Source: Phascolomyces articulosus
Taxonomy: Eukaryota; Mucoromycota; Mucoromycetes; Mucorales; Lichtheimiaceae
Direction: 5' to 3'
Assembly (NCBI GenBank): GCA_025677815.1
Contig: JAIXMP010000028.1
Span: 62,001 to 126,000, forward strand
Length of the DNA stretch: 64,000 bases
The notes below the pieces were generated by a model, which was given only the letters and a program-made list of their open reading frames with translations, was not told the DNA's origin and did no database searches. The translations under genes and the position numbers were made by a program. Below, piece after piece: positions 6,666-48,402 of this stretch. Positions within the stretch are counted from its first letter, which is position 1. Every line of letters begins with the position of its first letter.

Positions 6666-6732
6666 GGCTACGTCTAATTGCACACCCCCTCTCAAAAAAA
6701 AAAAAAATTGCACACCCCCTTTGAAGGTCCGA
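6666..6732. repeat. MULE-A left terminal inverted repeat
   Basis: 67 bp whose outer and inner parts pair with 10298-10348. The motif TTGCACACCCCCT occurs twice here, separated by a 14-base A tract. The right end has the two motif copies closer together, so the A tract is an expansion or insertion in the left end. The repeated CACACCC boxes are candidate transposase binding sites. Confidence 0.8.
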
Positions 6733-6849
6733 AGATAAAAATGCTTTTGCAGAAAACAATATATAAAACTGAAAGGTAAAAAATAAAAGAGTATAAAAAG
6801 AGAAGAGACAATAGGAAAAAGAAAATAATATGTGAAAAAGGAAAGGGAA

Positions 6850-9800
6850 CTATTTGGTTAAATCGACAGGTTCGGAATCAGATGAATAAATGGAATGAAC
6901 ATCAGCATCGTCAGGAAGAGAAATTTCAGTGAATATACGAATAGATTGATCAAATACATCTTTGAAAAGTAGATACCATGGATCAGCAGTTAATACTTCT
7001 TTCTTTCTTCCACGACTTTCATAATAAAGTGCTGGCCATTGGATATGTGTATCGTGTTTGATTTTTACAAGGATGAAATGATTAACAATAAGCAGCAGAG
7101 CGATTGGGTGTGTACTTTCTGCATGGGCCGGATCGATTTGAAGAGGAAAAAAAGTATTAGATTCGTAACCGTAAAGTGCTAATGGAGGTTTGAATGTGTC
7201 AGAAGCAATTTGTGCACATTCAGGGGCACAAAACCATTCGTTACTATTTGGATCGAGGACCTGTTTAATACGACGGTGATCGTAGCGTTTGTAAATACCA
7301 TCGATATTTTTCAAATAGTGGATGAGCATTGCATCTTTTACTTCAATATATCTTCCCTCATCACCAAATAATGCAACTGCTAATGCTCGAAATCCACAGT
7401 TTCCATCTGGAGCTGGGTTATACACCATTTCAACTTCGGAGCGAGGTATCAAGCTATGTTTTACCATATTTAAATTAGGTACAAAGCGAATTTTACGGGA
7501 TGGTGGTGTGGATGGATTAGAGGCAGATGATGTACTATATGTCTGGGTGTTATCAGTAGGTTCACGTTTTCCACTCCTAAAATTTAAATTTAAATTGCCA
7601 AGAATAAGGTGAACATGCTCATGCTTCATAACAATATTTTATATCTACATGGACAACATATTACCATATTTCTGCTTCCTCACGGCCAAATTCAGTTTTG
7701 GCTTTCTTTTGACTTGCATTTTCTTGATATTCTAATGCAATTAAATCGCGCTTGTTATTTTTTTGATGATATTTTCCTCGGCCATTCTTTGGAGAGGTTT
7801 TTGGTTGTTGTAAGTCTTTAATATTTATGAAAAGATCATCACTGATTGCTTGCAAGCGCTGCAGTAAGGTTTTATGTTGATGTGGGTACTTATAAACCAA
7901 ATTATTAATACGAGTAAGCTCAACATTAATCTGATCTTCGACAGTGGGGGCAATGTAACGTTCTGTTACTGCAAGGATGTTGCTTTCGTTGTCTGAAGTT
8001 TTGTCTTCTATATAACCGAACAAAATGTAAGCATCGAGTATAGGTGTTACTTTTATTTAATTACCTTGTGGGGCGGTTTTTTCTGGATAAAGGTGCCAAC
8101 GTCTAGGAATTAAACTCAAAGGAATTTCCCCAGCAGAGGGTAACATATGACAGCAAAGGATATTGTAATGAGCTTTGATGTTACATCTGCAATTATCTGT
8201 TTTCAAAATATTGCGATGCTTTAATTCCCCACAAATGGCATAAAATGCAAATTTTGATATTTTACGCTGTAATTGAGCAAGGCGTAGCTTATAGTCCGGT
8301 GGAAGACGAGGGTCAACATCGAAAGATTCTTTGTCCAATTGCCTTTTCCAAGATAAGTTCTGTTTTGAATTACAAGAAAAAATATTGTTACATATACATA
8401 TCTCATCCTATATCCGATCATTTATACATACTCTCAACCTGTAATGTTCATCGATTTGTTCAAAGACGGAATAAAAGTTGCCGCTTGATGACTGGATCGA
8501 CTTTTTTAATGTAGCGTGTGTACCTTCAATCCGGTTTGTACTGTTGTTGCCAAAATGAACTACATATGCAATATCGCGGCCAACCCACTTTTCACGAAAT
8601 TCAAGTTTTCTATTTGTTTTATTTATATATGCAGAAAAAATATTAATTGATTGTATATTAAATATTAGGTCGTCAATTAACATAAATGTGGTTTACTCAC
8701 TCTTCTAGATACTTTTTAACCTCATCCGGTTTTTTCGATTTCTGAGCGATTTCATTGTACATGGCTAATGCTTTAGTCTCAAGCTCCTCATCTGGAACCA
8801 CACATATTTTGGAATACTCGTCATCATATTTATCAGCCATCAAAAAATTGACTGCCTTTTCAAGTTGTTCATAATCGTCCTTGACATCGAAAAGTTTTTA
8901 CAATTTTGTTCGAAAGTTACGTCGAATGTGAACTTTACACAATAACTTTTTTGAGTCAGGAAAAAAATTATCCAGTGCTCTTATCAACGGCTCTGCACTA
9001 TCAGTAACAAAGACCTTGGGAAAGACAGATCGGTGAGATGGCCAAACTATATCTCGAATTTTTCCAACTACCCAGGCATAAGTTTCATTTGTTTCCCGAG
9101 ACACCCATCCTCCTGCAATGCAAAATGTTTTCAAACTTGGATATCCAATGTTTCCGGTGCCTACAACATTGATGAAAGGCATGCGATGCTTGTTTGTCTT
9201 GTATGTTGCATCCAAAACCACCACCTCTGGAAACTTGCACGCCAAATCAATGGCTGATTGATGAGCCCAAACAAGGGAAACCAAGAATTGCTTTCCCCCC
9301 TCCTTTTTAGAGTCAAACTCAACCTCGTATCCACTCTCTTTAAGCTTGGTAATTAATTGGAACATTGTATGATCAGGATCATTGTTAAATATCGTTTGTC
9401 GCATATTGGTAATATCCTTCGGGTCAACAATTTTATTCTTGCTAGCAAGGAATGACATAATGGAGCTGTTTGATGCATGACTCTTAATCATGTTGATAAC
9501 AAGTGCTTCATCATCAACGTCGAGGCGGCGTAACATCGGATACGACGATAGCTCTTGAGCTAATTCATGATTATGCTCACCATTGTAAAAAGATACAACA
9601 TGCCATTGCTGACTATGCTTATTCAATGGTCTAAGTGTCATACGGAACAGACATCCAAAACGTTGAGAATAACCTCTACGTTGTTTGTTTTTATTGGTGT
9701 CCAACGTAGAATCGGTAATTTCACCATTATCCTTAGCAACAAACATTTTTGGTGTATCATTGCTTTGATCGTCATCATGAACGTTGCTGCTGGCTGGTTG

Positions 9801-9995
9801 ACCATAGTGCTTACAAGCAATAATCATCTTTCTTTTGTCGTCCTTTTTTCCACGCGAAGTATTGCTTTTAAAAGTGAACAACGCGATTCCATTCTTTTCA
9901 CCCCATGCAAAACATGCTTTTCTGGCAGCATTGTGATCATCCCAAGATTGTTGAAGTTCATCCGGGATTGATAACATTGAAGTGGATTCAGACAT
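6850..9995 (-). pseudogene. MULE-A transposase with FAR1-like DNA-binding, DDE, SWIM and C-terminal OTU domains (one nonsense codon)
   Basis: Five exons, all phases agreeing: 9995-8701, 8609-8432, 8359-8065, 8007-7665 and 7576-6850, giving 946 codons including the final stop. Residues 20-145 resemble a FAR1/WRKY-GCM zinc domain (Cys61, Cys115, His141, His143). The MULE DDE core has Asp262 (LDATYKTN), Asp332 (VTDSAEPL), a C-x2-H pair (Cys353/His356) and Glu459 (NRIEGTHATLK). A SWIM-type C-x-C...C-x-H finger follows in exon 3. Exon 4 is basic and probably a linker. Exon 5 is an OTU cysteine protease with Asp761-Gly-Asn-Cys764 and His870 (IVNHF). Codon 366 is TAA (8898-8900); the frame on both sides is otherwise clean, so the copy is broken only there. 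A role in excision and integration, plus deubiquitination, is known for the separate families; the combined role is inferred. Confidence 0.85.
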
Positions 9996-10297
9996 TGTGA
10001 TCAGTAATGAAATTGTAAAAAGTTGCTTTTAAGTATTAATAAGAAAAGATTAATTTGTAATTGATATTATTTTTCCATTTCCTTTATGTATCATTTGTGC
10101 TACCGTTTCTATAATACACAGTCGCTACTTTTATTATTTCATATATATTTCTTTATATTATAAACTTGAGTACAGCTATTACGATTAAATAACAAATATG
10201 ATATTATTATTGCCATTCATTTGAAAAAACTGGGTTAATTGATATATTATTCGAGTTGCATAATATGAATTTATTATATCTAAATATTAGACCTTAC

Positions 10298-10348
10298 TCG
10301 GACCTTCAAAGGGGGTGTGTAAGAGAGGGTGTGCAAATAGATGTGGCC
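10298..10348. repeat. MULE-A right terminal inverted repeat
   Basis: 51 bp pairing with the left end. The inner 20 bases (TCGGACCTTCAAAGGGGGTG) match the inverted left end exactly; the outer part has a few substitutions. Two CACACCC-type boxes are present in inverted form. Confidence 0.8.
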
Positions 10349-42710: not shown

Positions 42711-43843
42711 ATAATCTTTTTGACGAATTGCAATGCTAAAGCATTATTTTCCCAAAAGTGAAATAAAAGAAAGACTTGTCTACATATCTTAAACTCTATT
42801 TACAAAAAGTTTTTCCTCTTGCTACTATCTTTCGTATCTGATTATCATTTGGTAAACACATCTTCCATCAAAGGTCTTCCGGCAAATATGTACTACGTAT
42901 GAGCTACATAACACACATTATTGTTGAGCATTACATGTATGTGATCTTTGTTTTGGTTTTGTTCTCTCCTTCAATAAGAAAAGTTACTGCCAAGAAGAAT
43001 ATCACAATATCCTTCCCTTTTGCATTCTTTCTGATAACTACTACCTTTTTTTAATACTACTTTCGTAGTAACATATTGTTTGAAATATAAAAAGTAAATT
43101 TTTCATTTTTTTGTTTTCCTATAAATCATTCCAAAAGATACTTATTCACCATTTTTTTTTTCATTATAACAAGTATTGATTTATATTTGATTGTATCCGA
43201 TCTAAAAAAATATTTTTATTAGATTTAGGAAGTACACATTCAAAATTTATTACAGCTTAAATACTTACTGTGTTGGCATTGAAATAGCATACCGTTGTAG
43301 GAATAGAATAAATCATTCACATATTTAGACTTTTTATTTGATATCTGTTCTTCTATCTTTTGGTGAAAATAGTAAAAACATATACCAATAAACAGAGACC
43401 TGGAGGATTTGCAAATTAGAACGAAAACTCGAGGTTAACAGAGTGCATTGCTGCACGATCTAAGTAATAACTACTCTCCCTCATTTTTTATATTTCATAC
43501 CGGCCAACTCAATTTAGTGATAATGATACGGTATTTTATTTTTTTAAAAAATTATCTGGGTTTACACTTTCCCATAACTGAAGTACTACTATTACTGCCA
43601 TTGTTGTGCCTAGATTCTTAGTCGCTTTCGCTCAATATTCCTTCTTCGCTTCTGCTAGGATTTTGTTCCTTTGTATCATTTAAACCAGGGGTGTACGCTA
43701 GAGCATTATCAAGATCTGGAGCATGATAGGGCTCTAATATTTTTTATTATTAGTGCCTTAAAAAACAATGAAACATACGAATATAGAACCAAAAAAAAAG
43801 CACCTCCAGCCAAACACAGCAGCCTTGTCTTTGTGCCTCTAAG
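42711..43843. other. gene-poor AT-rich stretch
   Basis: No supported gene on either strand before the interrupted ORF that starts at 43844. Confidence 0.35.
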
Positions 43844-44025
43844 ATGGACCTTTTTTCTTTCCAAATGTTTTCCTTATCCACTATATTGAATGATATAATG
43901 AAGTTACTTGGTGAACGGGCCTGTTTTTTTTTTCTTTTGTTTACCAATTTAAAAGGTGACGAAGTTACAACGAGTTCACAACGTAATTTGAGGCAACCAC
44001 AAAGAAGTGCTGAACGACATAATAG
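43844..44025 (+). pseudogene. coding exon interrupted by MULE-B (left part)
   Basis: A frame open from ATG 43844, or from an acceptor-like TTTAAAAG at 43948-43955, reads a basic/polar segment ending RQPQRSAERHN. Ignoring MULE-B and one 9-bp duplication, the same frame continues at 48234 without a stop for 56 codons. That restored frame is the evidence that the target was coding. No domain is recognised; the region is polar and probably disordered. Confidence 0.5.
44017..44025. repeat. target-site duplication of MULE-B, left
   Basis: ACATAATAG, identical to 48225-48233. Nine base pairs is the typical Mutator-superfamily length. Confidence 0.9.
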
Positions 44026-44078
44026 GGGTGGTGTGTTTTTTTGTGGGCTTTTTGGCATTTTTGTGTATTTAGCCACAG
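44026..44078. repeat. MULE-B left terminal inverted repeat
   Basis: Starts at the first base after ACATAATAG. It pairs with the right end over GGGT...GTGTTTTTTTGTGGG and again at TTTAGC after a short insertion. Confidence 0.8.
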
Positions 44079-44435
44079 ATTTTTTGTGTACTTCGCCACC
44101 GGTGTGGATGTTACACAGTACTTTGGGTATTATAAAAAGCGACTTTTTTTGTGTACTTTTTTTTGTGTACTTTTTTTTAGGGGCCTGTCTCTTCATGGCG
44201 CTCACTCCCCTCACTCAAAAGATTTTTTTTGTGTGGTATTTTTTGTGTGGTTTTTTTTTTTTTTTTGTGGTTTTTTTTTTTTTTGTGGTTTTTTTTTTTG
44301 GTGTGGTATAAACTAGGTATCTATCATTTACAGCATTATATAGTCCATATTACAAGCGATTTTTTTTGTGTGGTATTTTTTGTGTGGCAAATTCAAAATG
44401 TACTTTTTGTGTGGTTTATCAAGTGATTTTTATTC
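44079..44435. repeat. MULE-B subterminal T7-GTG repeats
   Basis: At least eight copies of a run of 6-8 T followed by GTGTAC or GTGTGG (for example near 44140, 44160, 44228, 44243, 44358 and 44373), including AAGCGA-T(7-8)-GTG twice. The motif matches the core of the terminal repeat, as expected for clustered transposase-binding sites. It is present only at the end 3' of the gene. Confidence 0.6.
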
Positions 44436-44912
44436 ATCTTTTTTTTAAAAAAAACTATCTTAGGCTCTGGTTACAATAGTTATAACTATTCTATTTAACT
44501 ATTCTATTGACTATATATATCTAATATTTGTCACTTACCAAGTATATTGAACTATTTACTAACAACGTCATATAATCATACAACTTTACTTCACCAATTC
44601 ACCTCAGGTTCACATAATTCAACCTGAGTAAACCATACCTTATTCACACATGACAAATACATATTGATCCACTTGATCGTACAATATAAAGGCATATAGA
44701 CCATCCTTATATGAAACCCGAAAGAATAAAACAAAACAACAATTGAAATAAACAACAAGAAAAAAAGTCATCAACTTATCTCCAAATGGGTCATTGCCCG
44801 TCTATGTTACGAATTAGTTAAATTATAATGCTTTGTCAGTTAACTATAATGAGTGAAAAGAAAAAAAAAGTTAGTACCATTTTGGTTAACCATATTGAAT
44901 ATTACATACATG

Positions 44913-47900
44913 TTAAATATGGTGTCTTTGGTGATAAAAATCCAACCATGTTGTTGATAGTTGCTTTCTCTTCACATAAGGTTCATAGGTGAGTTCCAAA
45001 CGTGGCCATTGCATATGATTAATTGCTTCGTCTTTCATGATAACTGTATAGAAATGTATTCTATCCAAGTGTAATATAATGGGGGTTTTGTCGTCATCTG
45101 TATTCTCTGTTTCGACATATGGCAAGAATGTAAATGATGCTTCAATGGGAGTTGTCAATACAATGACTGGTCGATTATAAACTTGAGCTAAAACAATTGG
45201 ACATTCCAGATTGTCAAACCACAACCCCATTGTCACCGGTCCTTCTGGCTGATCAAACTTCTTCATCAATTTATGGTAAAGTGTTTCACCAAACATATCC
45301 TTAAACAGTGTCGATTGCTGTTCCATTTTTGTCTTCATACATAACTTGACAACAAAACACTGGTCTTCTTTTCCATAAATTGCAAAAGATGCAGCCCGCC
45401 AACCACAGTTACCATCATCAACAGGGCTATATCTCCCAATAACGCCTTCTTTATCCAACTTGAACTGGCGCATATGTAAATCCGACATGGGAAGAAGGTT
45501 AAACTCACGGACCATCGGCTTAAACATCTTCTCTCTATACAAATAAAACATAACCAGTTATAAATTTTAAAAACATACCATGTTTCTTTTTTTTTATCAG
45601 TTATCGGCAATCTGCCTTCTCACCTAGCAGACTTTTCATTTATCATCTTCATTCGTTTTAATTCGCGTTCCTCTTCTTCCATTCTTCTTCTCTTCTTGTT
45701 CTCCTTATATTCTTCACGTATTTGGTTTGCTTGCTGCTCGCGCCTGGCTGCCAACAATTCTCGTCTCGACTTACCATGCTCCTCCTTCGGCTGGTCTTTT
45801 TTATCGCCGTCAACCTTTCCCTTCTCATCACCACTCTTTTCTTTTTTCTTTTCTTCCCCTATATAACACAACACATTAATGTAAATGTATGGAATATATA
45901 TAAAATATCAAAATGTAAACAGTACAATAAATGAAAATCGGGTACTAACCATGACCAAGAAGAGCTTTGGTAGTGTCAGGTGCACGTCCATCGTTTATAA
46001 ATCTCTCCTTCTTTGGCTTTGAACTATCATAAAAAGAAATATATAAGTACACTAGCTAATCATACAAAAATATGATAATACCTTTTATTTTGAGTGTCTT
46101 TAACTCTGAAGCCATTGTCAAAGCATTCAAAGTCTTTTTCCAGTGATTGTAAGTAATAAAACATTTGACGTAATGTTTCAATCACTGGTTTCTTGGCATG
46201 AACAATCCTATAAAGATCTCGATGGTACGCCTCAATGCCATTGGTTGTACGACATTTATTTTCTTGCAATTCTTTCTTCAAGACAGCCTTTGATCTGAAA
46301 ATCATTACCGCAATTTCATCTCTTGTCCACCATTTTAACCAACGATGGCAGTTTGGAAATTCGTTGTGTAGATCCTGTACTGCACTATTGAATGTCTTTT
46401 CGGTTTTGGCATTATACATCTTGTTCGTCAAATTCAAAAAATTATCATCAAAGCCACGAGGAACGACAAAGTGATTGCTGACTATGCGCTGGACCGACTG
46501 CTTCCAATGATGATAGCATCCACGAAGGAGCGTAGTTGCATCAATGTTGCTTCGAGGAAACGCATCCATAAACGCATCAAGAAAACCTTGACGTTGGGAT
46601 TGGGAAAAATCCATAACCTATAACAATATATATATATAGTTCATACATTCAAAAATCACGTACCAGTAAGCAATACAATCAAAATACAGCCGGTTTCGCC
46701 GTTCATGTTTACAATGCAACTCGACAATATTGTGGCTGTTAAGTTACTTGTTTTCACGTCCTTATTCTATGTTCTACAACCTCCCCTCGTCCATATAGTA
46801 TATGCTCCTTCTATATCAAACATGCTCACATGCTCAAGACATTTTTTCATACCCATATCCTTATCACAAACTTCATTAACTGAACCTCTCAATACCCTTT
46901 CCCTTTCACCCATCACTCTTTCACCAATCACCTTTTCATCCAAGCCTTTTACCCCATCACTCGCTCACCATCAAAACACTCATTCTATCACCAACCATCT
47001 ACACTACAGTAGATCATTTTATACACTTACCAGCCCCGAAAAATTAATATCCAGTTCCTCGTCTGACTTGCCAAATGCAAATGCAAAGGTACGAAAGAAG
47101 GATAGAAAATAAGCCTTGAAATGTGTGGCTGTCAAACCATCAAGAACAGCTTGAAAAACCACACCAAACTTACCCGTCTCTTCAAAAAATATATTTGTAG
47201 AACACAGGTAATAACCCTTCGAGAAACAATCGTATGTGACGTCGGTGAGGATAGGGTAAGATTGAAAATCGACACGAGCAGCAACAGTTGGGGCACAGAA
47301 CGTAATGCAGAATTTGCCGGGTGTTATATCGGTCGATTGGAGGTAATCGGGAAACTCCTCAATAAGATTACCAAGCTCGTCACTAGCAGATTCCAATGAG
47401 GGGCGGCTTGAAGGGAGTTTTCCTCTCTTGACAAGAAAATTACGTCGGTAACGTTTAATTTTGCCGAGACGATGCAATGTCTTGCTGATTTTGATCATTG
47501 GTCGTGCTGGTTGTTGTGGACGTATACTGCTGGTGCCAACTTTCAACGCGTATGCTGTTTCTGACGGGCATTCAAGCACACGTTCCTCCACTTGGTCAAG
47601 AACTTCCATGGTGTCATGCAATGGTTCAAACCTGTTATGAGTGTGTGTGCCTTGATGGTCAAGTGTACCTATTCTCCCAGTAAACTTGAAGTTCACTCTA
47701 ACTGAACAACAAATGTGCTGCAAGGAGTGTTCATTACAGAATTCACAAGTGCCTTTGACCTGCTTTTCTATACCTTTAGGCGTACTCATGGGTCTGATTA
47801 TCTTGCCACACGACTTATTGGTACAGTTTACTGCACCCAAACAAATCTTGGTGATACTGAGGCCATTCTTGATGTGGCCATAATTTCTTTGGAAAAGCTG

Positions 47901-48020
47901 CCATCCAATGCTCATGTCATACACATATTCTTTTTCGTTGTTTTTGCTGTTTTCCTTTTTAGCTTCGCGAAGTTGGATTTGGTAAATATTTTTACCATCA
48001 GGAAATTGAGGGAAAGACAT
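44913..48020 (-). CDS. MULE-B transposase with GCM-like zinc domain and C-terminal OTU cysteine protease (818 aa)
   Basis: Five exons, all phases agreeing: 48020-47031, 46617-46082, 46023-45950, 45858-45624 and 45534-44913, 819 codons with the stop. Residues 35-130 hold ordered Cys/His (Cys60, 66, 71, 92, 95, 104/105; His122, 126, 128) like the GCM/WRKY-type domains of MULEs. DDE core: Asp260 (LTDVTYD), Asp333 (VMDFSQSQ), C-x2-H at Cys364/His367 and Glu459 (TTNGIEAYHR). The 413-bp intron lies between the first and second Asp. Residues 534-612 are a highly charged Lys/Glu/Arg helix, probably a coiled coil and nuclear-targeting linker. Residues 640-790 are an OTU domain: Asp652-Gly-Asn-Cys655, then His772 in RIHFY. 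No key residue is missing. Transposition and ubiquitin cleavage are known for the separate families; their joint role here is inferred. Confidence 0.9.
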
Positions 48021-48171
48021 GGTACAGTAATAAAACAGTGATAATGTAATTGGAAGTAATTAAGAAGTAAGAATAATTCAAACAATTTACAAGAGTATCC
48101 TTTTAATGTATTCATTTAATTGCGTATAGACTGCTTTTCCTCTTCCCCGACTGCTTTTCTTCTCGCCTATT

Positions 48172-48224
48172 TCAATTTTTTGTCAGCTGCTAAATCAAAA
48201 AACCCCACAAAAAAACACTCACCC
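48172..48224. repeat. MULE-B right terminal inverted repeat
   Basis: Read inward (minus strand) it begins GGGTGAGTGTTTTTTTGTGG, then a T run and GATTTAGC, pairing with the left end. It ends exactly at ACATAATAG. Confidence 0.8.
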
Positions 48225-48233
48225 ACATAATAG
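48225..48233. repeat. target-site duplication of MULE-B, right
   Basis: ACATAATAG, the partner of 44017-44025. Confidence 0.9.
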
Positions 48234-48402
48234 TAATACACGAGCGATTAATACGGAATGTAACACTTCACCTATACTTTTTCCAAATGAATCGGATGCA
48301 AAAGTGTGTCGTTATATGAGTGCCGGTTCTGTGGAATCGAGTTCTGGTGATGAAGGAGACGAAGGGATGTCTTCCAATTTACAAGACCTATGCTTCAGGT
48401 GA
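48234..48402 (+). pseudogene. coding exon interrupted by MULE-B (right part)
   Basis: Continues the frame of 43844-44025 for 56 codons to TGA (48400-48402). It is Ser/Glu/Asp-rich (SVESSSGDEGDEG) and so probably a disordered region. The last codons overlap a GTGAGA donor (CTTCAG-GTGAGA), so the exon probably splices onward rather than ending here. No downstream exon was identified. Confidence 0.5.

Follow-up and report, generated by a model that had tools for sequence, protein, structure and literature searches.

A Mutator-like DNA transposon of Phascolomyces articulosus with a predicted transposase-OTU fusion, and the recurrence of its OTU domain beside other transposases

The window analyzed here is a stretch of 64,000 nt from the genome of the mucoralean fungus Phascolomyces articulosus (contig C32, positions 62001-126000; the assembly searched has 47.4 Mb in 110 contigs). 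At window positions 44026-48224 we found a DNA transposon of 4,199 bp, whose single gene is predicted to encode a DDE transposase fused to an OTU cysteine protease domain. By direct reading, the element is flanked by a perfect 9-bp target site duplication (TSD; ACATAATAG), with identical copies at 44017-44025 and 48225-48233, as an earlier note on this DNA had reported. The same note described matching inverted ends; these are alike, yet imperfect. The left terminal inverted repeat (TIR; 44026-44060, plus strand, beginning GGGTGG) and the right one (48192-48224, minus strand, beginning GGGTGA) align over 35 and 33 bases, respectively, with two small gaps and a few mismatches (termini GGGTGGTGTGTTTTTTTGTGGG... 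and GGGTGAGTGTTTTTTTGTGGGG...). The left end also belongs to repeat I5 (21 nt, with 95% complementarity). A chance origin of the ends or of the TSD was rejected: the end alignment score was matched by none of 5000 random pairs of 40-mers from the window and by none of 5000 shuffles of the ends, and a perfect 9-mer match between flanks is expected at ~1e-5 per site. Inward of the left end lies a T-rich subterminal tract with GTGTGG/GTGTAC repeats (44136-44428; repeat families D1-D5).

The gene lies on the minus strand and, with predicted splicing, has five exons separated by GT-AG introns of 413, 58, 91 and 89 nt (lengths from the exon bounds). Exon 1 (47031-48020) carries the start codon, an N-terminal domain of GCM type (recognized with a profile of relatives) and the first catalytic Asp (260). 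Exon 2 (46082-46617) contains the second Asp (333), Cys364-x2-His367 and Glu459. Exon 3 (45950-46023) is followed by exon 4 (45624-45858), a charged, Lys/Glu-rich linker, and exon 5 with the stop codon (44913-45534) encodes the OTU domain (residues 613-818, with Asp652, Cys655 and His772). The phases join into 819 codons, that is 818 amino acids plus the stop, with no internal stop, and the three DDE residues and the three OTU residues were all found at the positions originally given for them. Intron 4 (45535-45623, 89 nt, starting GTGAGA), if left unspliced, places an in-frame TGA right at its donor; its retention could thus produce a transposase form without OTU.

When the complete element was searched against the assembly, a check of the kind that the earlier note had proposed, six full-length copies were identified. 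Four of them (on C32, C29, C28 and C15) are identical across 4,199 bp, and the other two differ by one homopolymer base (one extra on C1, one missing on C37). Perfect TSDs flank five of the six copies (four of 9 bp, one of 10 bp, within the 8-11 bp of Mutator elements), and their sequence differs from site to site: ACATAATAG, GTGAATAAGA, CATTAAAAT, CTCTGATAC and GTCATCCAG. The flanks of the copies are unrelated (24-38% identity). Identical copies with distinct flanks and TSDs reflect separate insertions, which took place too recently for the copies to diverge. The copy set is the best proof of a mobile unit, and the element described as an intact transposon is indeed one. The C1 copy (G000:C1:488248-492447), otherwise intact, lacks a TSD, possibly after a deletion at the site or recombination. 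Partial relics with 76-93% identity were found on C70 and C27.

The assignment of the transposase draws on several features. In Mutator-like elements (MULEs), a Cys-x2-His motif stands between the second Asp and the Glu of the DDE core; here Cys364/His367 sits between Asp333 and Glu459, so that the residue order is of Mutator type. The N-terminal domain type and the TSD length point in the same direction, as may the core of a relative, whose fold seems closest to that of the IS256 transposase ISCth4. The imperfect inverted ends of 33-35 bases lie within the range of 14-500 bp given for Mutator TIRs in PMC6446971. Profile searches did not recover the family. The Pfam MULE model (PF10551) gave no match at E<=1 against the whole protein and was found in none of 23 relatives; a Pfam scan of the whole protein returned only a chance CDC45 match (E 0.62). 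Weak Pfam matches among relatives were to Transposase_mut in one (0.069) and to ZSWIM1-3 RNaseH-like in two (best 0.0024), an NCBIfam scan of four relatives yielded nothing useful, and hhalign against six MULEs of this genome gave a probability of 0.1 with shallow profiles. Since the Pfam MULE model fails to recognize the protein, we file it as Mutator-like rather than as a proven MULE; the earlier assignment stands on TSD length, ends, residues, N-terminal type and the relative's fold, but not on the Pfam MULE or profile-profile comparisons.

The C-terminal domain is predicted to adopt an OTU fold, with a sequence-profile match to OTUD5 (E 6.5e-10); the best 50 of 215 Foldseek matches to its model and the 50 VIA matches listed were all OTU entries. 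Asp652 and Cys655 lie in a DGxC motif and His772 in a C-terminal His motif, and the Asp, Cys and His are invariant in all seven OTU exons aligned from this genome. Structure prediction supported an OTU fold, in which the candidate triad residues are conserved; the profile searches recovered OTU through OTUD5, did not recognize the MULE family and left Pfam OTU below its cut-off. OTUD5 (DUBA) shares the fold, at 22% identity in the structural alignment, and is also matched by sequence profile, where its Asp/Cys motif and its His motif line up with those of the element; VCPIP1 shares the fold at 17% identity; unlike the domain studied here, neither is a transposon protein.

We identified 27 homologues of the fused protein, eight of them in one search. 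Two proteins of Circinella minor (P0001 and P0002, 54% identity) carry the GCM-type region, the core, the linker and OTU within one annotated protein, P0001 being truncated before the OTU His and P0002 lacking the Cys-x2-His stretch. P0009 and P0005 (the latter with an incomplete core) come from two sister families of this genome and have the same domain order. These annotated fusions are gene predictions made independently of the earlier note, and the architecture shared with C. minor and with two other families here means that the fusion is not a chance reading of the window. UniRef names P0001, P0002, P0005, P0009 and P0016 as OTU domain-containing and P0010 as MULE transposase domain-containing. 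All four text patterns of the core (Asp, Asp, Cys-x2-His, Glu) occur in six of the 27 (P0001, P0003, P0004, P0009, P0015 and P0017), the remaining ones being partial or missing one pattern; P0003 and P0004, encoded on short contigs, stop before the linker.

Three sister transposases (P0015, P0017 and, from Rhizopus microsporus, P0027) have a different conserved domain after the same core, beyond residues ~630, ~730 and ~460, respectively. It contains a conserved Cys box, which reads SCFIDATFEMLW in P0017 and SCYIDAIFELLW in the other two, and, late in the domain, a His box of the form GVHFY or GDHFF. Among the three, Pfam UCH matched P0027 only (E 0.13); in P0015 and P0017 the Pfam scan detected no family of peptidases, sequence searches of PDB returned no peptidase, hhalign found no relation to OTUs, and a protein search with the P0017 domain returned only itself. 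Over most of its length, the P0017 model from AlphaFold stays below a pLDDT of 50. From the order of its motifs, this domain is possibly USP-like, which is a guess.

Across the genome, OTU domains of this type are found mostly next to transposases. Two sets of OTU rows (30 and 31) gave 32 places after merging of overlaps and same-locus fragments, and 28 rows of transposases of the window element's type (query-type) gave 20 places; 29 MULE rows were kept, with C38 counted twice. All counts are lower bounds (the search scores its best candidates only), and the places cannot be treated as independent, as the window element accounts for six of them through its copies and several others are nearly identical to one another. 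Twenty-five of the 32 OTU places lie 1.07-1.70 kb downstream of a transposase match on the same strand, as against 0.07 expected under uniform independent placement (copies included in the 25). Thirteen adjoin query-type places (13 of the 20), and 12 adjoin Pfam MULE matches (13 of the 29 MULE rows, C38 twice), one of these in the window. The ordinary Pfam OTU model detected two places in the genome, neither among the 32, so standard annotation overlooks this branch of OTUs.

The OTU part is, judging by its substitutions, under purifying selection in related families. The ratio of nonsynonymous to synonymous substitutions (dN/dS) was 0.22 between C19 and C38, 0.35 between C46 and C80, and 0.31 between C27 and C67; it was 0.14, with few changes, between C19 and a second element of the window described below. 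Values closer to neutrality were obtained for C38-C58 (0.97) and C24-C23 (0.48), of which C58 and C23 are fragmentary. Between the window element and C67 synonymous sites are saturated, and there is consequently no dN/dS for the element itself. In the tree of OTU domains, C24 and C23, which belong to query-type transposases, join C46 and C80, which belong to Pfam MULEs (support 99/96; rows L046, L051, L047 and L052), and forcing the query-type OTUs into one clade was rejected by the approximately unbiased test (p 0.018). This suggests that the OTU module was exchanged between transposase types. Each row had its transposase type assigned ahead of tree building; given that the test was chosen afterwards and that the tree carries a long-branch warning, exchange is likely rather than shown.

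Transposases with protease modules have been described before. Whether this fusion had already been named was left open in the earlier note; the literature gives a partial answer. Table 1 of PMC6446971 gives "Ovarian Tumour Gene" as an extra motif of the Hydra MULE MuDR-6_HM (group 14), which likewise combines the Mutator superfamily with OTU; that element is cnidarian, the record is a single table cell, with neither anatomy nor any discussion in the main text, and the likeness is one of description only. The same table lists MULE-Mucorales (group 5: 10-bp TSD, 40-bp TIR, SWIM) without OTU. In Ginger1, in print since 2010, OTU (or Ulp1) is C-terminal in a DDE transposase, and its authors proposed a role in repair (PMC2836005). 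Ginger1 thus shares the DDE core and C-terminal OTU in one protein, but it is Gypsy-integrase-like with a CCGG/CCGT TSD, in contrast to the TSDs of 9-10 bp and the possibly IS256-like core of a relative found here. We tried and rejected membership of Ginger1 itself, the TSDs being 9-10 bp and variable between sites and the Pfam scans containing no integrase family. Plant, hydra and lancelet MULEs that carry Ulp1 (cited in PMC2836005) also combine a Mutator-type element with a protease of the ubiquitin family; Ulp1, however, acts on SUMO and belongs to a cysteine protease family separate from OTU. Helentrons, including some of fungi, share an OTU-like protease (PMC6431247; PMC4067079), but are rolling-circle elements with a Rep-helicase and no DDE transposase. 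In open-licence PMC texts we found no description of fungal DDE-OTU fusions, nor of their recurrence or exchange; the main texts of PMC10799480 and PMC12730594 do not contain the word OTU, and the OTU of the PMC6875170 text is an operational taxonomic unit. A role of ubiquitin in transposition is, in the parts of the literature on OTU and Ulp1 transposases considered here, a proposal rather than a tested result.

We interpret the locus as an autonomous, recently active Mutator-like cut-and-paste element, in whose single spliced gene a zinc DNA-binding domain of GCM type is followed by an RNase H-like DDE core, a charged linker and an OTU cysteine protease, the last of which would prolong the life of the transposase complex. 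We give this reading as a whole about an even chance; its anatomy taken alone is highly probable. The fusion would hold the protease on the DNA-bound transposase, where it could deubiquitinate either that transposase or proteins beside the transposition complex, and the complex with DNA may then last long enough for cutting and joining. Its kin would recur beside other transposases because the domain is useful to any transposase in these fungi. Such a role of the OTU domain in protection in cis is a tentative proposal, which we place a little short of even. The pairing at 25 of 32 places, its occurrence in two lineages, the purifying selection in relatives and the discordant trees argue that the protease works for the elements and is not a passenger. 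A broader idea, somewhat unlikely in our estimate, is that OTU is a swappable accessory passed between transposase lineages whose sequences no longer show a recognizable relation, and replaced in the same position in the Rhizopus-type sisters by another, possibly USP-like, cysteine protease; deubiquitination would then be a general requirement of cut-and-paste transposition in these fungi, which different enzymes would have come to serve repeatedly.

Several results weigh against the interpretation of the element as a Mutator-like transposon with a working OTU protease. By Foldseek alone, the core of P0017 had no match at E<=0.001 (the best was a P element, 1.2e-3). The OTU motif was found in five of the 27 homologues (P0001, P0002, P0005, P0009 and P0016); the others are mostly short or partial models, and three carry the other C-terminal domain. 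No OTU was found within 4.5 kb of 16 of the 29 MULE rows and 7 of the 20 query-type places, and no transposase for 7 of the 32 OTU places. The Pfam OTU model stayed below its cut-off with the exon alone (E 0.032) and did not match the whole protein. Many OTUs have a polar Asn or Asp two residues past the catalytic His, dispensable where the Asp of DGNC serves; this position is Tyr774 here, the six other aligned exons have Ser, Gln, Lys or Ile, and none of the seven has Asn or Asp, which would leave Asp652 to act as the third catalytic residue. Finally, the third codon of exon 5 encodes Met (residue 615), and the OTU exon could formally be a gene of its own.

The main rival to protection in cis is an editing role at donor and target sites, where the OTU domain would act on the ubiquitin of chromatin or of repair proteins (histone or break-signalling ubiquitin, for example) and so channel repair or open targets; we consider this unlikely. 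A role in trans, in which OTU acts against a host defence that depends on ubiquitin (through degradation of the transposase or through a ubiquitin-using silencing complex), would agree with its recurrence beside two transposase lineages without detectable sequence relation and with a possible exchange of the module, but no host factor is known and protection in cis predicts the same pattern equally; it appears quite unlikely to us. Still more doubtful is a dead binding module with an OTU fold (for example, one that only binds ubiquitin): the residue at His+2 and the replacement of DGNC by DGYC in the C24 relative and by DGWC in the C46 relative speak for it, whereas the Cys and His are kept in all seven aligned exons. 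The OTU exon might instead be a passenger, either captured or a separate gene, with no role in transposition, as the Met codon near its 5' end, the many transposase places without OTU and the habit of MULEs of capturing gene fragments might suggest; this is very improbable in view of the same order and spacing at 25 of 32 OTU places, the fused annotated proteins in another genus, the dN/dS of 0.22-0.35 between related families and the phases joining at all four introns.

The recurrence of OTU beside many transposases makes its role in jumping testable. The window element is a good object for this purpose, with one gene, a single-exon protease whose predicted nucleophile can be replaced by Ala, and four identical recent copies.

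Elsewhere in the window lies a second MULE-OTU element, a broken copy that belongs to a different family (6711-10322, minus strand; these limits are taken from its match with the C19 copy and are not proven ends). Here PF10551 matches above cut-off at 8901-10028 (E 3.9e-18), FAR1 matches below cut-off, and the OTU exon lies in 6853-7638; the element carries a SWIM-like motif as well. We found no TSD around it. Its copies on C19 and C100 are ~98% identical, and the family appears to be in decay, since by our reading a stop interrupts the transposase exon of the window copy, a frameshift the C19 copy, and the C100 copy has lost a donor. A search for relatives that share the left end (L021-L023) yielded a single weak end.

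The insertion site of the 4,199-bp element was also rejoined in silico. When its flanks (43787-44025 and 48234-48402, plus strand) are fused at one TSD copy, a 135-aa open frame runs across the junction, while the longest frames at four other rejoined sites have 27 to 72 aa. Given this frame, the element may have landed inside a host gene's exon.

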